From NCBI GenBank assembly GCA_021815365.1, contig JAKAGZ010000005.1:1-64000 (forward strand): a stretch of DNA of 64,000 bases, in the 5' to 3' direction. The notes beneath the pieces are model-generated. The model was given only the letters and a program-made list of their open reading frames with translations. It made no database searches and was not told the origin of the DNA. Positions 57,799 through 62,642 of the stretch are shown one piece after another. Within the stretch, counting starts at the first letter, position 1. Each line of letters begins with the position of its first letter. A program made the translations under genes and the position numbers. This DNA is from Bacteroidota bacterium. GTDB lineage: Bacteria > Bacteroidota > Ignavibacteria > Ignavibacteriales > Ignavibacteriaceae.

Positions 57799-58623
57799 TC
57801 AGTTTATCGGGATTACGCACCCTAAATTGAAATTCACAAAATGTTTTTTTTCGTTCTTATAGAAAAACCAGTTGTACCCGCTCTCTAACTTGATTCCAGA
57901 GGTTATCCCTGTCTTTATGAAAAGACCCGTTCCCAATGTTGTTAGAAAACCTTTTTTGCTTGAATCCGGAAAAACTTTTTTGCCTGTGATATAGTCAACA
58001 TCAGTTTCTGATGTCAGCAAATTTCCATATCCTGAAAAGATTGAAAGTATAGGTTCAACAAATGAGCCAGTAAAAATAAAAATCCTGTTAACCAAACCAA
58101 CGCTCATTAAATAAGATGTGCCTCCGTTAACTGCCGCCTTCGTTCCTGAAAATCCATTTTGAACAAGGAAATTGTCTCCGTTTAAATTTACTGAGCTGTA
58201 GCCAAGCTGAATCCCCAGGGAATAAAATTTATTGAACTGATAATTCAGGTCGGCTAAAAAAGATATACCTTGTTTTCGTATCTTTGCTTCATTCAGAGGT
58301 CTCAGATTTACTATCCCTCCCCCGTTCAGACTGAAGTAGCCCCAGGCTGATGATTCTTTCTCAGAAAAATTATTTTCCTGATTAAACGATATCCATTCTC
58401 CTGTTGAAAGAATTATATAATCAATATCTGTTTTAGGATAGTCATAAAGCAGGTCATTATCCCCTGAACGAAATTCAACAGTGCTCTGTTTTATTTTTAT
58501 TACTTTCCCTCTGACTGTTCCAAAATATTTCAAATGGATTTCATCAGTTTTTTTTTCCTGCGCTCTCAGCACAAATCCACTAACAGTAATAATTAGAACC
58601 GTCAGCAAAAATATTTTTCTCAT
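57799..58623 (-). CDS. Exported protein with SH3-like start and beta-barrel-like C-terminus
   Basis: The 274-residue protein has a signal peptide (1-21). Residues about 28-80 (GTVRGKVIKIKQSTVEFRSGDNDLLYDYPKTDIDYIIL) form a small beta module that recurs in Bacteroidota proteins handling mRNA-like or wall polymers. From about 90 the sequence is a set of amphipathic strands (SLGIQLGYSSVNLNGD, GIKLESGYNWFFYK) ending NFNLGCVIPIN, as in small outer-membrane barrels. The role is unknown. It follows the EIIA-like gene with a 20-base gap. Confidence 0.6.
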   Translation of the reverse strand: MRKIFLLTVLIITVSGFVLRAQEKKTDEIHLKYFGTVRGKVIKIKQSTVEFRSGDNDLLYDYPKTDIDYIILSTGEWISFNQENNFSEKESSAWGYFSLNGGGIVNLRPLNEAKIRKQGISFLADLNYQFNKFYSLGIQLGYSSVNLNGDNFLVQNGFSGTKAAVNGGTSYLMSVGLVNRIFIFTGSFVEPILSIFSGYGNLLTSETDVDYITGKKVFPDSSKKGFLTTLGTGLFIKTGITSGIKLESGYNWFFYKNEKKHFVNFNLGCVIPIN

Positions 58624-58643: not shown

Positions 58644-59447
58644 CTACTTTGCTTCATTAGATAAATTATTTGTAAGCCTGATTGCAATACAATCATACGA
58701 ACAGCGGTTAAGCTGATAATCTGCTGAGCTTCTTTTAATAATGCGCCATCCGTTCAGTTCAAAAATTCCTTTCGAAGCAATAGTCTCGACAAGCTGAAGA
58801 GAGTTATCGAGAATATCACTTAACTCTTTATTCTGCGAGAGCACAACAGGTCTTTGATTAGAGGCAGCAATTATAGTCACCGGTTCGATAATCATATTTG
58901 ATAGCTGCTGGATTTTTTGTTCAGCAGAAATTCCCCTTGCTTCCAGTTGTATCATCCTCGCTCTTGCTTCAGAACCGACCAGACTTTTTGAAGCGCTGAC
59001 TAAATCCAAAAGATAATTTCTGATTGTATTCAAGTCATTAGCTTTGCGGAAAGATTCTATGTTAGGGTCACTTTGCAGAGCTTTGGCAAGAATAGAAATT
59101 TCTTTCAGGTAATGATTCCTCTGGTTATCCGGCACAAGATGCATTATAACTATGTGAACAGGCACATTATCGGGAGCGCCATAGTTAATGCCGGTTGGAC
59201 TCCAGCCTACCGAGCAGATCAGGTCTTCTTCATAAGGCACACGTGCGTGCGGGCAGGCAAAACTTTTACCTAATGCCGTTGGGCTGTTTTTTTCACGGGA
59301 CAAAACCAAACCTGCAACGTCTGTACCATTTGGCACGGAGGGAATCGCTTCTATAATATGAGCTAAGAATTGCAGTGAATGAAATTTATCATTATCAGGC
59401 AACTCAATTAAACGACCTTCCTGTAAAGCATCTAATAAAGTTTCCAT
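58644..59447 (-). CDS. PTS EIIA (fructose/mannitol-type)-like regulatory protein
   Basis: The 267-residue protein has a PTS_EIIA_2-like domain (about 1-150). The phosphorylatable His is in FACPHARVP (about 68), with GLVLSREKNSPTALG before it and LISVxxxPxG-like ICSVGWSPTGINYG after it. A C-terminal part (about 160-267) is of no known family. No PTS permease, EI or HPr gene is nearby. It lies 2 bases from mgtA and is surely co-transcribed. In proteobacteria, EIIA-Ntr type proteins control K+ and Mg2+/phosphate transport, so a regulatory link to MgtA is likely. Confidence 0.85.
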   Translation of the reverse strand: METLLDALQEGRLIELPDNDKFHSLQFLAHIIEAIPSVPNGTDVAGLVLSREKNSPTALGKSFACPHARVPYEEDLICSVGWSPTGINYGAPDNVPVHIVIMHLVPDNQRNHYLKEISILAKALQSDPNIESFRKANDLNTIRNYLLDLVSASKSLVGSEARARMIQLEARGISAEQKIQQLSNMIIEPVTIIAASNQRPVVLSQNKELSDILDNSLQLVETIASKGIFELNGWRIIKRSSADYQLNRCSYDCIAIRLTNNLSNEAK

Positions 59448-59449
59448 AA

Positions 59450-62101
59450 TTAATTACCTCCGTATTTTTTGAAGAACCAGACTTTAACACTATGCGTCAG
59501 AAAACTGTACGCTAATAAAAATCCTAATACCCACAACCAGTAAACTGCCGGGAGCGGCACTAAACCAATTACTTCTGCAAAAGAAGAATACGGCAGCCAT
59601 GCACCAATCAGCATAATAAATAATGTTGTCAATGTCATCGGCAAAGATGCCCTGCTTCCAATAAACGGAATACGCCTGGTACGAATAATGTGAACGATCA
59701 ATGTTTGTGTTAACAATGATTCAACAAACCATCCGGTTTGAAAAAGTTTTTCATAATACTGACCGTTTGAACCCGAATTTAGAAACTGATAGCATCCAAA
59801 AACAAACCACATAAGAGCAAATGTTGCGTAATCAAAAATAGAACTGATTGGACCGATAAAAATCATAAATTTTTTAATGTTGTCAATATTCCATTTCAAT
59901 GGTTTAGCTACAATTTCTTTATCTACATTATCAGTCGGGATTCCCGTCTGCGAAAAATCGTAAAGCAAATTGTTAAGCAGAATCTGGATAGGGCGCATCG
60001 GTAAAAACGGAAGTAAATAACTTGCACCAACGATGCTGAACATATTTCCAAAATTTGAACTGGCACCCATCCTGATATATTTAACAATATTAGCAAACAC
60101 TTTACGTCCTTCAATAATACCATCTTCAAGTACTAATAAATTTTTTTCGAGCAGAACAATGTCTGCTGCTTCTTTAGCAACATCAACAGCCGAATCCACC
60201 GAAATTCCTACATCAGCAGCACGCAAAGATGGCGAATCGTTTATTCCATCGCCCATATAACCAACAACGTATCCCGCCTGCCGAAGTGAAGTAATTACCT
60301 TTTCTTTCTGAAGAGGCGATAATTTCGCAAATATATTATTTTGCTGAACAGCAAGAGAAAATTCTTCGTTAGTCAGGCGGTTTAACTCATCTCCCGTTAT
60401 AACCCGCCCTGCTTTCAGACCAACATCTTTACATACTTTTTGTGTAACAAGTGAATTATCTCCGGTTAAAATTTTAACTGTCACACCTGTATTATGTAAA
60501 ACTTTAATCGCTTCTGCTGCAGAGTCTTTCGGCGGATCAAAAAAGGCTATGTAACCAAGAAGTATTAAATTTTTTTCATCGGCCACACTAAAGGACTGAT
60601 AAGTAGATGGGAACTCGCGGTAAGCAATAGCCAGCACACGATAACCATTGTTGTTAAGCGTCTCGACCTCTTCATAAAGATCATCGTGTATCATGTCAAT
60701 TAACGGATATATTTCTTCATCTACCTGGTAATGCGTACAAACTGAATAAATCTCTTCAACAGCACCCTTGCAAATCAAAACGTGATCACCTTCATATTGA
60801 ACGATAACAGACATTCTCCTTCTTTGAAAATCAAAAGGTAACTCGTCAACCAGGCTGCATTTACCTTCAACGTTAAGCTCGATATGCGAAAGTACAGCAC
60901 GGTCAATCAGGTTCCTTAAACCTGTCTGGTAAAAACTATTCAGATAAGCATATTGCAGAACTGCGTTGCTTTCATTACCGGTAATATCAACGTGTTTTTC
61001 CAGGATAACCCTGTCCTGTGTCAGTGTCCCTGTTTTATCTGTACAAAGGATATCTATTGCGCCAAAATTCTGTATCGAAGAAAGGTTTTTTACAATTACT
61101 TTTTTCTTTGACATTGTTAAAGCGCCTTTAGCGAGATTCACAGTAACAATCATTGGAAGCATTTCGGGAGTCAGTCCAACAGCAATGGAGAGACCAAATA
61201 ATAATGCTTCGATCCAGTTCCCTTTGGTTATTCCAACTATCATAAATACAGCAAACACCATCAAGGTCATAAAACGAATCATCAGCCAGGTAAATGATTT
61301 GATACCTGAATCAAAACTTGTTTCGGCTCTCCTTTCAGTCAGCTTTTCCGAAATTGACCCAAAGTAAGTTTTAGTACCTGTGTTAACTACTAAAGCACGT
61401 GCAGTTCCACTGAGAACGTTACTTCCCTGGAAGCATGCATTTTGTAATTCAAATACAAAACCATTTTCGAGTTTTGTTTGTTCAGCTTTCTTTTCAATTG
61501 GCATAGATTCGCCAGTAAGCACTGACTGGCTGACAAAGAAATCCTTTGCAAAGATTAAACGCAGATCAGCAGGTATAATCGAACCCGCATGAAGAAGTAC
61601 TATATCACCCGGTACAACATCTGACATAGGCAACTCTGTTTCTTTACCATCTCTGAGCAGCAGCACGTGTGACTGCACCCGTTTACCGAGCGACTCAACA
61701 GCCTTTGAAGATCTTCTGTCAAGAATATAAGATAAGCCCACACTGAGTAATACCATTATACTCACTATTATCATTGATTTTGCTTCACCGATAATTCCTG
61801 AGACCAGCGCAATAACCAGTAACTGAATAACCAAAGGGCTCTTGCATCTGTTCAGAACATCTGCCCAGAAGCCGAGAGTTTTTGAATGTGCAAGTTCATT
61901 AAAGCCGTAATCCTCTAATCGTTTTTGGGCTTCTTCGGATGATAATCCCTTAATATCAGTTTCGAGTTTTTCAAGACTGCCCTTAACATCGAGGCTGCAA
62001 ACTTCAATTAAACGACGTTCATTCTCAGAAGTTTGATGAGGAGATTTTGCTTCTTTAGTAAAATTTGATGAAGATATTTTTGAGAAGATAGAACGAGCCA
62101 T
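59450..62101 (-). CDS. mgtA: Magnesium-importing P-type ATPase (MgtA/MgtB type)
   Basis: The 883-residue protein brings Mg2+ into the cytoplasm at the expense of ATP. It has an N-terminal cation-ATPase domain (VKGSLEKLETDIKGLSSEEAQKRLEDYGFNEL), a TGES motif (SVLTGESMPIEKK), the phosphorylation site CTDKTGTLTQ (about 355), the hinge MGDGINDSPSLRAADVGISVDSAVDVAKEAADIVLLEK (about 625), and about ten helices. Those C-terminal sequences (TDNVDKEIVAKP, FGCYQFLNSGSNGQYYEKLFQTGWFVESLLTQTLIVHIIRT) are MgtA-specific. A ribosome site gggggatt precedes ATG 62101. The leader upstream (62102-62389) carries two small ORFs and a hairpin. Confidence 0.95.
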   Translation of the reverse strand: MARSIFSKISSSNFTKEAKSPHQTSENERRLIEVCSLDVKGSLEKLETDIKGLSSEEAQKRLEDYGFNELAHSKTLGFWADVLNRCKSPLVIQLLVIALVSGIIGEAKSMIIVSIMVLLSVGLSYILDRRSSKAVESLGKRVQSHVLLLRDGKETELPMSDVVPGDIVLLHAGSIIPADLRLIFAKDFFVSQSVLTGESMPIEKKAEQTKLENGFVFELQNACFQGSNVLSGTARALVVNTGTKTYFGSISEKLTERRAETSFDSGIKSFTWLMIRFMTLMVFAVFMIVGITKGNWIEALLFGLSIAVGLTPEMLPMIVTVNLAKGALTMSKKKVIVKNLSSIQNFGAIDILCTDKTGTLTQDRVILEKHVDITGNESNAVLQYAYLNSFYQTGLRNLIDRAVLSHIELNVEGKCSLVDELPFDFQRRRMSVIVQYEGDHVLICKGAVEEIYSVCTHYQVDEEIYPLIDMIHDDLYEEVETLNNNGYRVLAIAYREFPSTYQSFSVADEKNLILLGYIAFFDPPKDSAAEAIKVLHNTGVTVKILTGDNSLVTQKVCKDVGLKAGRVITGDELNRLTNEEFSLAVQQNNIFAKLSPLQKEKVITSLRQAGYVVGYMGDGINDSPSLRAADVGISVDSAVDVAKEAADIVLLEKNLLVLEDGIIEGRKVFANIVKYIRMGASSNFGNMFSIVGASYLLPFLPMRPIQILLNNLLYDFSQTGIPTDNVDKEIVAKPLKWNIDNIKKFMIFIGPISSIFDYATFALMWFVFGCYQFLNSGSNGQYYEKLFQTGWFVESLLTQTLIVHIIRTRRIPFIGSRASLPMTLTTLFIMLIGAWLPYSSFAEVIGLVPLPAVYWLWVLGFLLAYSFLTHSVKVWFFKKYGGN

Positions 62102-62112
62102 TACAAATCCCC

Positions 62113-62205
62113 CTAATAAAAATTTTGTTTACCGATCAGATAATTGCTCATAATTATTCTTATGACGGCGAAATTTGTAATCGGAAAGAAATTTAATCTT
62201 AACAT
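62113..62205 (-). CDS. Leader ORF 2 of mgtA, 30 residues
   Basis: ATG 62205 is preceded by a perfect GGAGGTG site and the frame ends at TAG 62113-62115, 11 bases before the mgtA start. The peptide begins MLRLNFFPITNF, is hydrophobic in the middle (AVIRIIM) and has a basic-aromatic tail. Its short distance to mgtA suggests translational coupling or a leader role. It could also be a small membrane peptide. It lies after the hairpin at 62226-62268. Confidence 0.55.
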   Translation of the reverse strand: MLRLNFFPITNFAVIRIIMSNYLIGKQNFY

Positions 62206-62225
62206 GGCACCTCCAAAAGCATATA

Positions 62226-62268
62226 CCTTAGGGTGTGCCTATGAATTAAGCGGAAGGCTAACCTAAGG
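62226..62268 (-). promoter_or_regulatory. mgtA leader hairpin
   Basis: In the transcript CCTTAGG (with inner GCCT) pairs with CCTAAGG (with inner AGGC) to make a 7-bp plus 4-bp stem. The 5' arm contains the TAG stop of leader ORF 1 (62263-62265). A ribosome finishing ORF 1 would sit on this arm, so folding should depend on whether ORF 1 is translated to its end. Confidence 0.6.
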
Positions 62269-62325
62269 AAAGATGATACAGTAAGTTTTTTTATTTTCAG
62301 CGCCAGGTTCGTCTGAATCGGGCAT
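62263..62325 (-). CDS. Leader ORF 1 of mgtA, Asp/Glu/Pro-rich 20-residue peptide
   Basis: ATG 62325 has AAGGAA six bases upstream and the frame closes at TAG 62263-62265. The peptide starts MPDSDEPGAENKK, so three acidic residues and two prolines fall within the first seven positions, and ends hydrophobic (CIIFP). Nascent chains with acidic and proline residues near the N-terminus are known to destabilise ribosomes when Mg2+ is low; that is how E. coli MgtL senses Mg2+. The sequence is otherwise unrelated to MgtL. Confidence 0.6.
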   Translation of the reverse strand: MPDSDEPGAENKKTYCIIFP

Positions 62326-62358
62326 GTTGTTTCCTTATAATTTTAGATTTAGACTTTT

Positions 62359-62389
62359 CAAAAATATATTTTTATAAGCTTTAAACAAA
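62359..62389 (-). promoter_or_regulatory. Bacteroidota-type promoter of mgtA
   Basis: On the minus strand TTTG (62386-62389), a 19-base spacer and TATTTTTG (62359-62366) fit the TTTG-N19-TAnnTTTG consensus exactly. Transcription would start near 62352, about 27 bases before leader ORF 1 and 250 before mgtA. Confidence 0.65.
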
Positions 62390-62501: not shown

Positions 62502-62642
62502 CTAGTGGACAAATAAAAGTGCAAATAAAATAAAACTTAACCAGCAAATCAGCCAACCGAAGCCTATGAATATAACAAATAATAACACATCATAAGCTTT
62601 TATCCAGTCTGTAATTTTTTTTAGTCCGAGTATCAAAGACAT
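62502..62642 (-). CDS. 46-residue membrane protein upstream of mgtA
   Basis: ATG 62642 has a perfect AGGAGGTGG ribosome site and the frame ends at TAG 62502-62504. The first 17 residues are amphipathic (MSLILGLKKITDWIKAYD). Residues about 18-45 form a long hydrophobic helix (VLLFVIFIGFGWLIC, then WLSFILFALLFVH). It lies 113 bases upstream of the mgtA promoter on the same strand. Enterobacteria use small membrane proteins (MgtS, MgtR) to stabilise or destroy MgtA. This one may have a like role, but its sequence is unrelated. Confidence 0.65.
   Translation of the reverse strand: MSLILGLKKITDWIKAYDVLLFVIFIGFGWLICWLSFILFALLFVH

Follow-up and report, generated by a model that had tools for sequence, protein, structure and literature searches.

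In the window, the whole 64,000-nt stretch of DNA analyzed here, the minus strand carries mgtA, which encodes a Mg2+-importing P-type ATPase (1094 bits against TIGR01524, Mg P-type ATPase; cut-off 611), preceded by a compact leader (Table 1). A sequence-only reading of this region had named a promoter (TTTG-N19-TATTTTTG), an AAGGAA site, a 20-residue ORF (ORF1), a hairpin and mgtA, and every one of these elements is present on the minus strand. The hairpin pairs CCTTAGG (62268-62262) with CCTAAGG (62232-62226), and the ORF1 stop codon lies within the 5′ arm, as had been described (TAG 62265-62263). That reading did not include the output of the switch, in which the 3′ arm pairs instead with the Shine-Dalgarno (SD) sequence and AUG of the next ORF; nor did it include ORF2, or the occurrence of the same module before mgtE. 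ORF2 ends 11 nt before mgtA, and its stop codon overlaps a GGGGGA sequence 5′ of mgtA.

Table 1. Features of the mgtA leader region, in positions of the window.
Feature	Position	Strand	Evidence or remark
-33 element TTTG (Bacteroidota-type promoter)	62386..62389	-	sequence
-7 element TATTTTTG (TAnnTTTG)	62359..62366	-	box starts 41 nt 5′ of ORF1 AUG
ORF1 Shine-Dalgarno AAGGAA	62331..62336	-	AGG conserved in alignment of relatives
ORF1, leader peptide MPDSDEPGAENKKTYCIIFP, stop TAG 62265-62263	62263..62325	-	
D-S-D-E-P-G-A stretch, ORF1 codons 3-9, proposed ribosome-destabilizing element	62299..62319	-	codon-by-codon conservation
Segment 2, 5′ arm of hairpin A, containing the ORF1 stop codon	62255..62268	-	covariation and swap test
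Segment 3, arm common to both hairpins; bound to segment 2 in hairpin A (open) or to segment 4 in hairpin B (closed)	62226..62243	-	
Segment 4, ORF2 Shine-Dalgarno GGAGG and AUG, closed in hairpin B	62203..62214	-	
ORF2, 30-codon frame MLRLNFFPITNFAVIRIIMSNYLIGKQNFY, SD GGAGG	62113..62205	-	between hairpin and mgtA
mgtA, Mg2+-importing P-type ATPase, controlled gene	59450..62101	-	TIGR01524 and Pfam domains

The neighborhood holds further frames on the same strand. Just 5′ of the leader, a hydrophobic frame of 46 codons, preceded by a strong SD (62505-62642, minus strand; AGGAGGTGGTTATG) possibly encodes a small membrane protein; it had no Pfam match and is absent 5′ of mgtA in the relatives that we read. 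Directly 3′ of mgtA lies a gene for a PTS EIIA-2 domain protein (58644-59447, minus strand; 76.6 bits), followed by a gene without a family match (57799-58623).

To place the leader among relatives, mgtA homologues were collected by searching 164 genomes of the order and 294 of the class, and their upstream regions were read. The leader was found 5′ of 25 of the 28 close MgtA homologues (68-100% identity) that had enough upstream sequence, and its named carriers include Stygiobacter electus 09-Me, two Melioribacter MAGs and several Ignavibacteriales MAGs. Nearly all of these ORFs start with M-x-DSDEPG-A/T, the variants being DTDELSP, GSDEPGA, DSDDPGA and SDSDESGPD. Upstream of three close homologues (in G099, G162 and G382) the leader is absent or unrecognisable; in G099, a GTG-started frame with an SD (VEDSVGDVSSSN...) stands 5′ of a 76% identical mgtA (L017) and may be a decayed leader. 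In the clade of MgtA proteins with about 52% identity, the upstream regions inspected lacked the leader, except for a different acidic ORF in G026. There, about 226 nt 5′ of mgtA (L027), an acidic and proline-containing leader (MDDPGGEKCSALNGVSSIVSIYDIRNSM) ends inside an 11-bp hairpin, and may be a version that arose independently or diverged strongly on this other MgtA clade.

Across 84,980 species genomes, the pattern ATG-NNN-DSDEPG was matched by 35 stretches, of which 19 lie before mgtA in the Ignavibacteria group, two lie before mgtE (uncultured Ignavibacterium) and 14 are not free-standing. These last, from Actinobacteria, Gemmatimonadota, Marinobacter and others, were rejected as leaders, with 12 within long open frames and two belonging to peptides of 83 and 106 aa. 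By this DNA-pattern scan, the free-standing leader is confined to Ignavibacteria-related records. A covariance model of the leader (R1), applied to the order and to 395 genomes from the phylum, gave confident matches before mgtA or mgtE only. Weaker matches at other genes (L107, L108, L110, L111, L113 and L116) were inspected and set aside because the leader architecture was missing.

Read from sequence, the 25 mgtA leaders and six mgtE leaders each place a short ORF with an SD, under peptide-level selection, before a Mg2+ transporter gene. Conservation of the start, frame and acidic residues in relatives, on which the earlier proposal depended, was found: M-x-DSDEPG(A/T) is kept, and the distance from the AUG to segment 2 varies mostly by multiples of three (same frame in 22 of 30 leaders, p = 9e-6). 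Each of D3, S4, D5, E6, P7 and G8 is retained in 28-29 of 30 leaders, so that most leaders carry DSDEP at codons 3-7 (the motif is weaker in G047). Across codons 3-6, the pairwise difference is 0.50-0.58 at third positions versus 0-0.13 at positions 1 and 2, and from codon 10 onward all three positions vary freely, with no conservation. ORF1, acidic motif included, is thus selected at the peptide level. Unlike codons 3-6, codons 7-8 (CCT GGC) are conserved at their third positions too, which is beyond what ribosome drop-off alone explains, and may reflect an added codon or RNA constraint.

The end of ORF1 is tied to the RNA structure. In 30 of 30 leaders, the stop codon falls between -9 and +16 nt of the start of segment 2, including the eight out-of-frame leaders (-9 to -5, +8 or +16 nt). 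In leaders with early stops, the folded helix reaches upstream to about 3 nt from the stop codon, so that a ribosome terminating there would mask the outer portion of segment 2. For a ribosome at codon 9, by comparison, the median distance to segment 2 downstream would be 33 nt (25-38). From this geometry, we infer that the choice between the two folds described below is coupled to translation of ORF1. The sequence-only rule that a finished ORF1 prevents the hairpin and an early fall-off allows it agrees with this arrangement.

The 3′ arm (consensus CAUUGGUUCAUCUCC) has two possible pairing partners in most leaders, the arm containing the ORF1 stop (helix A) or the SD and AUG of the next frame (GGAGGUGNCAAUG; helix B). 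Covariation, counted on model-fitted alignments with shuffles and slid registers as controls, was found for both, including the hairpin arms for which it had been predicted. All 13 pairs of helix A change on both sides among 31 sequences, with 45 double-change cells versus 21.8 ± 3.9 in shuffles; helix B has 23 such cells versus 12.2 ± 2.8 (0 of 500 shuffles). Slid registers were far worse for both helices. An alignment-free comparison of duplex energies gave the same picture, with means of −17.2 kcal/mol for A and −17.2 kcal/mol for B when each arm was paired with its own partner, versus −11.8 and −13.8 kcal/mol when partners were swapped. None of 5000 swap permutations was as good as the own partner for A, and none of 5000 for B, while the control pairing of the 5′ arm with the SD had no own-partner preference (4617 of 5000). 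Helix B is weakest in G058 (−8.6 kcal/mol) and G131. Both exclusive helices are thus conserved and covary. The support for the structure is comparative; taken alone, the window leader folds with no unusual stability (z = −0.85).

At equilibrium, the closed form B is slightly favored (median 2 kcal/mol; 5.4 kcal/mol in the window), and the window leader still folded into B when codons 1-12 were blocked. Because B is favored in most leaders, we rejected switching by thermodynamics alone; the open state must be kinetic, through co-transcriptional trapping. By eye, no T-run, the sign of an intrinsic terminator, follows hairpin A or B. The ORF1 SD of the window can pair with segment 2, but this additional pairing was not consistently seen in relatives, again by eye.

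The proposed promoter stood only in part. The TTTG-N19-TATTTTTG arrangement is exact in the window, and a TAnnTTTG box lies 28-80 nt 5′ of ORF1 in 16 of 31 leaders (2.0 in shuffles), usually starting 39-42 nt upstream of the ORF. The -33 TTTG with its 19-base spacer is exact in the window only, and its conservation in relatives was not found.

ORF2 is open in 20 leaders that we read, with a stop codon that overlaps the mgtA start codon in several and lies up to 86 nt upstream in others. Leader by leader, the frame is open slightly more than expected by chance (median p about 0.10). A role as a conserved peptide was rejected, as the sequence of ORF2 is divergent (four pairs, dN/dS about 0.35-0.9), and its role probably lies in being translated. 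Two relatives have lost the ORF2 AUG (AGG in G134, ACG in G646) and kept helix B, so translation of ORF2 cannot be the sole output in these genomes.

In six genomes, five of them with the acidic motif, the same leader immediately precedes a separate paralogue of mgtE; the R1 model contributed four of these leaders (G061, G121, G131 and the motif-poor G047). The downstream gene, with MgtE_N, CBS and MgtE domains by Pfam, is a second paralogue with 71-100% identity among the six genomes, and all six copies have the leader. In these leaders, the SD and start codon of the transporter gene serve as segment 4. The ordinary mgtE, at about 35% identity to the leader-associated one, is widespread and accompanies the second paralogue; no leader was found in its upstream regions (n = 14, one of which was not assessable owing to a miscalled start). 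Leader-mgtA and the second mgtE never occur together in any genome of the order. The G047 leader has both helices and a weaker peptide, MKESSSYINL. Its helix B (L105/L120) is long and unbroken over the SD and AUG, and one acidic residue lies near the peptide start (MKESSSYINLENKYSIKKTTLRK), making it a natural test case for the role of the acidic motif. Separately, three ordinary mgtE genes (L127, L128 and L137, in G006, G005 and G003) share a block around TTTTCGGGAATAATGGGCTAAATTTAA about 100 nt upstream that is unrelated to the leader and is possibly a regulator site.

Several known systems share parts of this design. In the M-box Mg2+ riboswitch before mgtE, an RNA fold controls mgtE in response to Mg2+ with no need for a translated leader; control of mgtE is common to both, but the window leader has no M-box match. 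In erm-type translational attenuators, leader translation decides helix choice and access to the downstream SD, the signal being an antibiotic-stalled ribosome. The logic of helix choice is the same as in the Ignavibacteria leader, for which the proposed signal is instead drop-off on acidic residues. A search of the leader against Rfam returned no relevant match at E ≤ 10, and thus no known riboswitch or M-box model.

The nearest functional precedents come from enterobacteria. MgtL of Escherichia and Salmonella is a short ORF before mgtA with acidic and proline residues near its start (EPDP); its poor translation at low Mg2+ turns mgtA on, and its RNA adopts two exclusive folds (PMC11282234, PMC11552253). 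The Ignavibacteria leader resembles MgtL-mgtA in biology, with a short acidic/proline ORF before mgtA and two exclusive folds. It differs in peptide (DSDEPGA) and RNA, which has no three-way-junction leader, in its output, a sequestered next start site, and in serving mgtE as well. The peptide had been called unrelated to that of MgtL, correctly at the level of sequence. For the Ignavibacteria leader, sequence shows the anatomy and the target genes; drop-off, Mg2+ as the signal and the direction of the switch we infer from precedent. The CorL leader of enterobacterial corA is similar in that translation of a leader ORF represses a Mg2+ transporter gene, but it is Rho-based, serves a different transporter, and has no described acidic start motif of the DSDEPG type (PMC11552253).

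In logic, the nearest system is MgtQ, between mgtC and mgtB in Salmonella, a tiny ORF whose translation is aborted at acidic codons. Its 2:3 stem competes with a 3:4 stem that hides the SD of a Mg2+ transporter (PMC8092293). In MgtQ, however, an extra 1:2 pairing means that lost translation turns mgtB off, whereas for the Ignavibacteria leader no such segment was consistently seen among relatives by eye, and lost translation should turn the gene on. MgtQ is also only 8 aa and lies inside an operon, while ORF1 has 17-27 aa and lies at the 5′ end of its transcript, often with ORF2. Because no sequence relation was found, we class the Ignavibacteria leader as a probable functional analogue, not a homologue, of MgtL and MgtQ. 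It differs from them in its peptide, RNA, taxon, predicted default state and service to two transporter families. A search of the literature, partial in coverage, found nothing relevant on Ignavibacteria or mgtE leader peptides, and no described relative; the sequence-only reading likewise knew of no described Mg leader of this kind in the phylum.

We consider it likely that the leader is a translation-abort attenuator in which the ribosome serves as the Mg2+ sensor, with MgtL (PMC11282234, PMC11552253) and MgtQ (PMC8092293) as precedents for the direction of the switch. Translation would begin with ORF1. With enough Mg2+, the ribosome would clear D-S-D-E-P-G and terminate in or just before segment 2, covering it; segment 3 would then pair with the next SD and AUG in helix B, shutting off translation. 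At low Mg2+, the ribosome would drop off or stall at codons 3-9, upstream of segment 2, and helix A would form once segment 3 was made and before segment 4 existed, leaving the next start open. The next frame is mgtE in Ignavibacterium; ORF2 takes that place in the window and in most relatives, and its translation would hand ribosomes to mgtA, shield the transcript from Rho, or both; coupled re-initiation and Rho protection both fit this handover. In ribosome-destabilization (IRD) Mg2+ leaders of the MgtL/MgtQ type, bL31 counteracts the abortion of translation at low Mg2+; genes for bL31 and Rho are present in the genome.

How the switch delivers its output is the step on which a Rho-based reading competes, and on that step alone. 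A ribosome-operated, Mg2+-responsive leader might act through Rho-dependent termination, as MgtL does, with helix B only part of a terminator-competent fold. Rho is available, an untranslated ORF2 region would expose RNA to it, and the two leaders that lack an ORF2 start keep helix B. Yet segment 4 is the mgtE SD and AUG in six genomes, which points to direct control of initiation, and ORF2 is open in 20 leaders, several ending on the mgtA start codon; a Rho-based output is accordingly possible but rather doubtful. The signal could differ too. The same two helices would be exchanged if ORF1 were an arrest peptide or a sensor of amino acids or tRNA (Asp, Glu or Pro supply), as a ribosome held at codons 3-9 likewise leaves segment 2 free. 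The near-invariant CCT GGC is what a specific arrest motif or codon effect would produce, and the related mgtP ORF of Salmonella responds to charged tRNA-Pro (PMC8092293). This reading is nonetheless unlikely given the single Pro codon, acidic codons 3-6 that match the described ribosome-destabilizing type, and targets that are only Mg2+ transporters, from two unrelated families.

Less probable still is that the RNA itself binds Mg2+ and ORF1 is secondary. Leaders of Mg2+ transporter genes are a known site of Mg2+ riboswitches, and direct sensing by RNA is still debated even for E. coli mgtA (PMC11552253). Here, however, no Rfam family scored sensibly, conservation outside the helices is at the protein level, with changes at third bases, the ORF1 stop keeps its position at segment 2, and the structure is a simple exchange of two helices without a conserved junction for ions; direct binding therefore seems very improbable. 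A chance meeting of ORF and hairpin in the window, with which the ordinary stability of its fold would be compatible, is refuted for practical purposes by conservation of the leader in 31 genomes, peptide-level selection and covariation.

Returning to the abort attenuator, it seems moderately likely that Ignavibacteria use a portable leader, made of three segments and an M-x-DSDEPGA abort peptide, to control the high-affinity Mg2+ importer of the genome (MgtA or the second MgtE) through a helix exchange at the next start codon, lost leader translation being the on state, and that a ribosomal Mg2+ gauge arose or was kept outside Proteobacteria. The module is kept in relatives, even before an unrelated transporter, and ribosomes may thus gauge Mg2+ in distant bacteria in a manner similar to that of E. 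coli and Salmonella. MgtL, CorL and MgtQ were studied in enterobacteria, and sensing of Mg2+ by the stability of the ribosome might be either peculiar to them or a general solution; a separate module that has a different peptide, belongs to a different phylum and precedes two unrelated transporters would argue for the latter. The 31 variants form a compact natural set for testing which nascent residues destabilize the ribosome, and a named strain (09-Me) exists for one of the carriers, Stygiobacter electus.

If this reading is correct, the second MgtE paralogue is predicted to be a Mg2+-starvation importer. As a separate observation on its surroundings, a gene of the CrcB (fluoride channel) family and a further conserved small gene follow leader-mgtE in the same direction (L075, 2-732; L078, 168-930).
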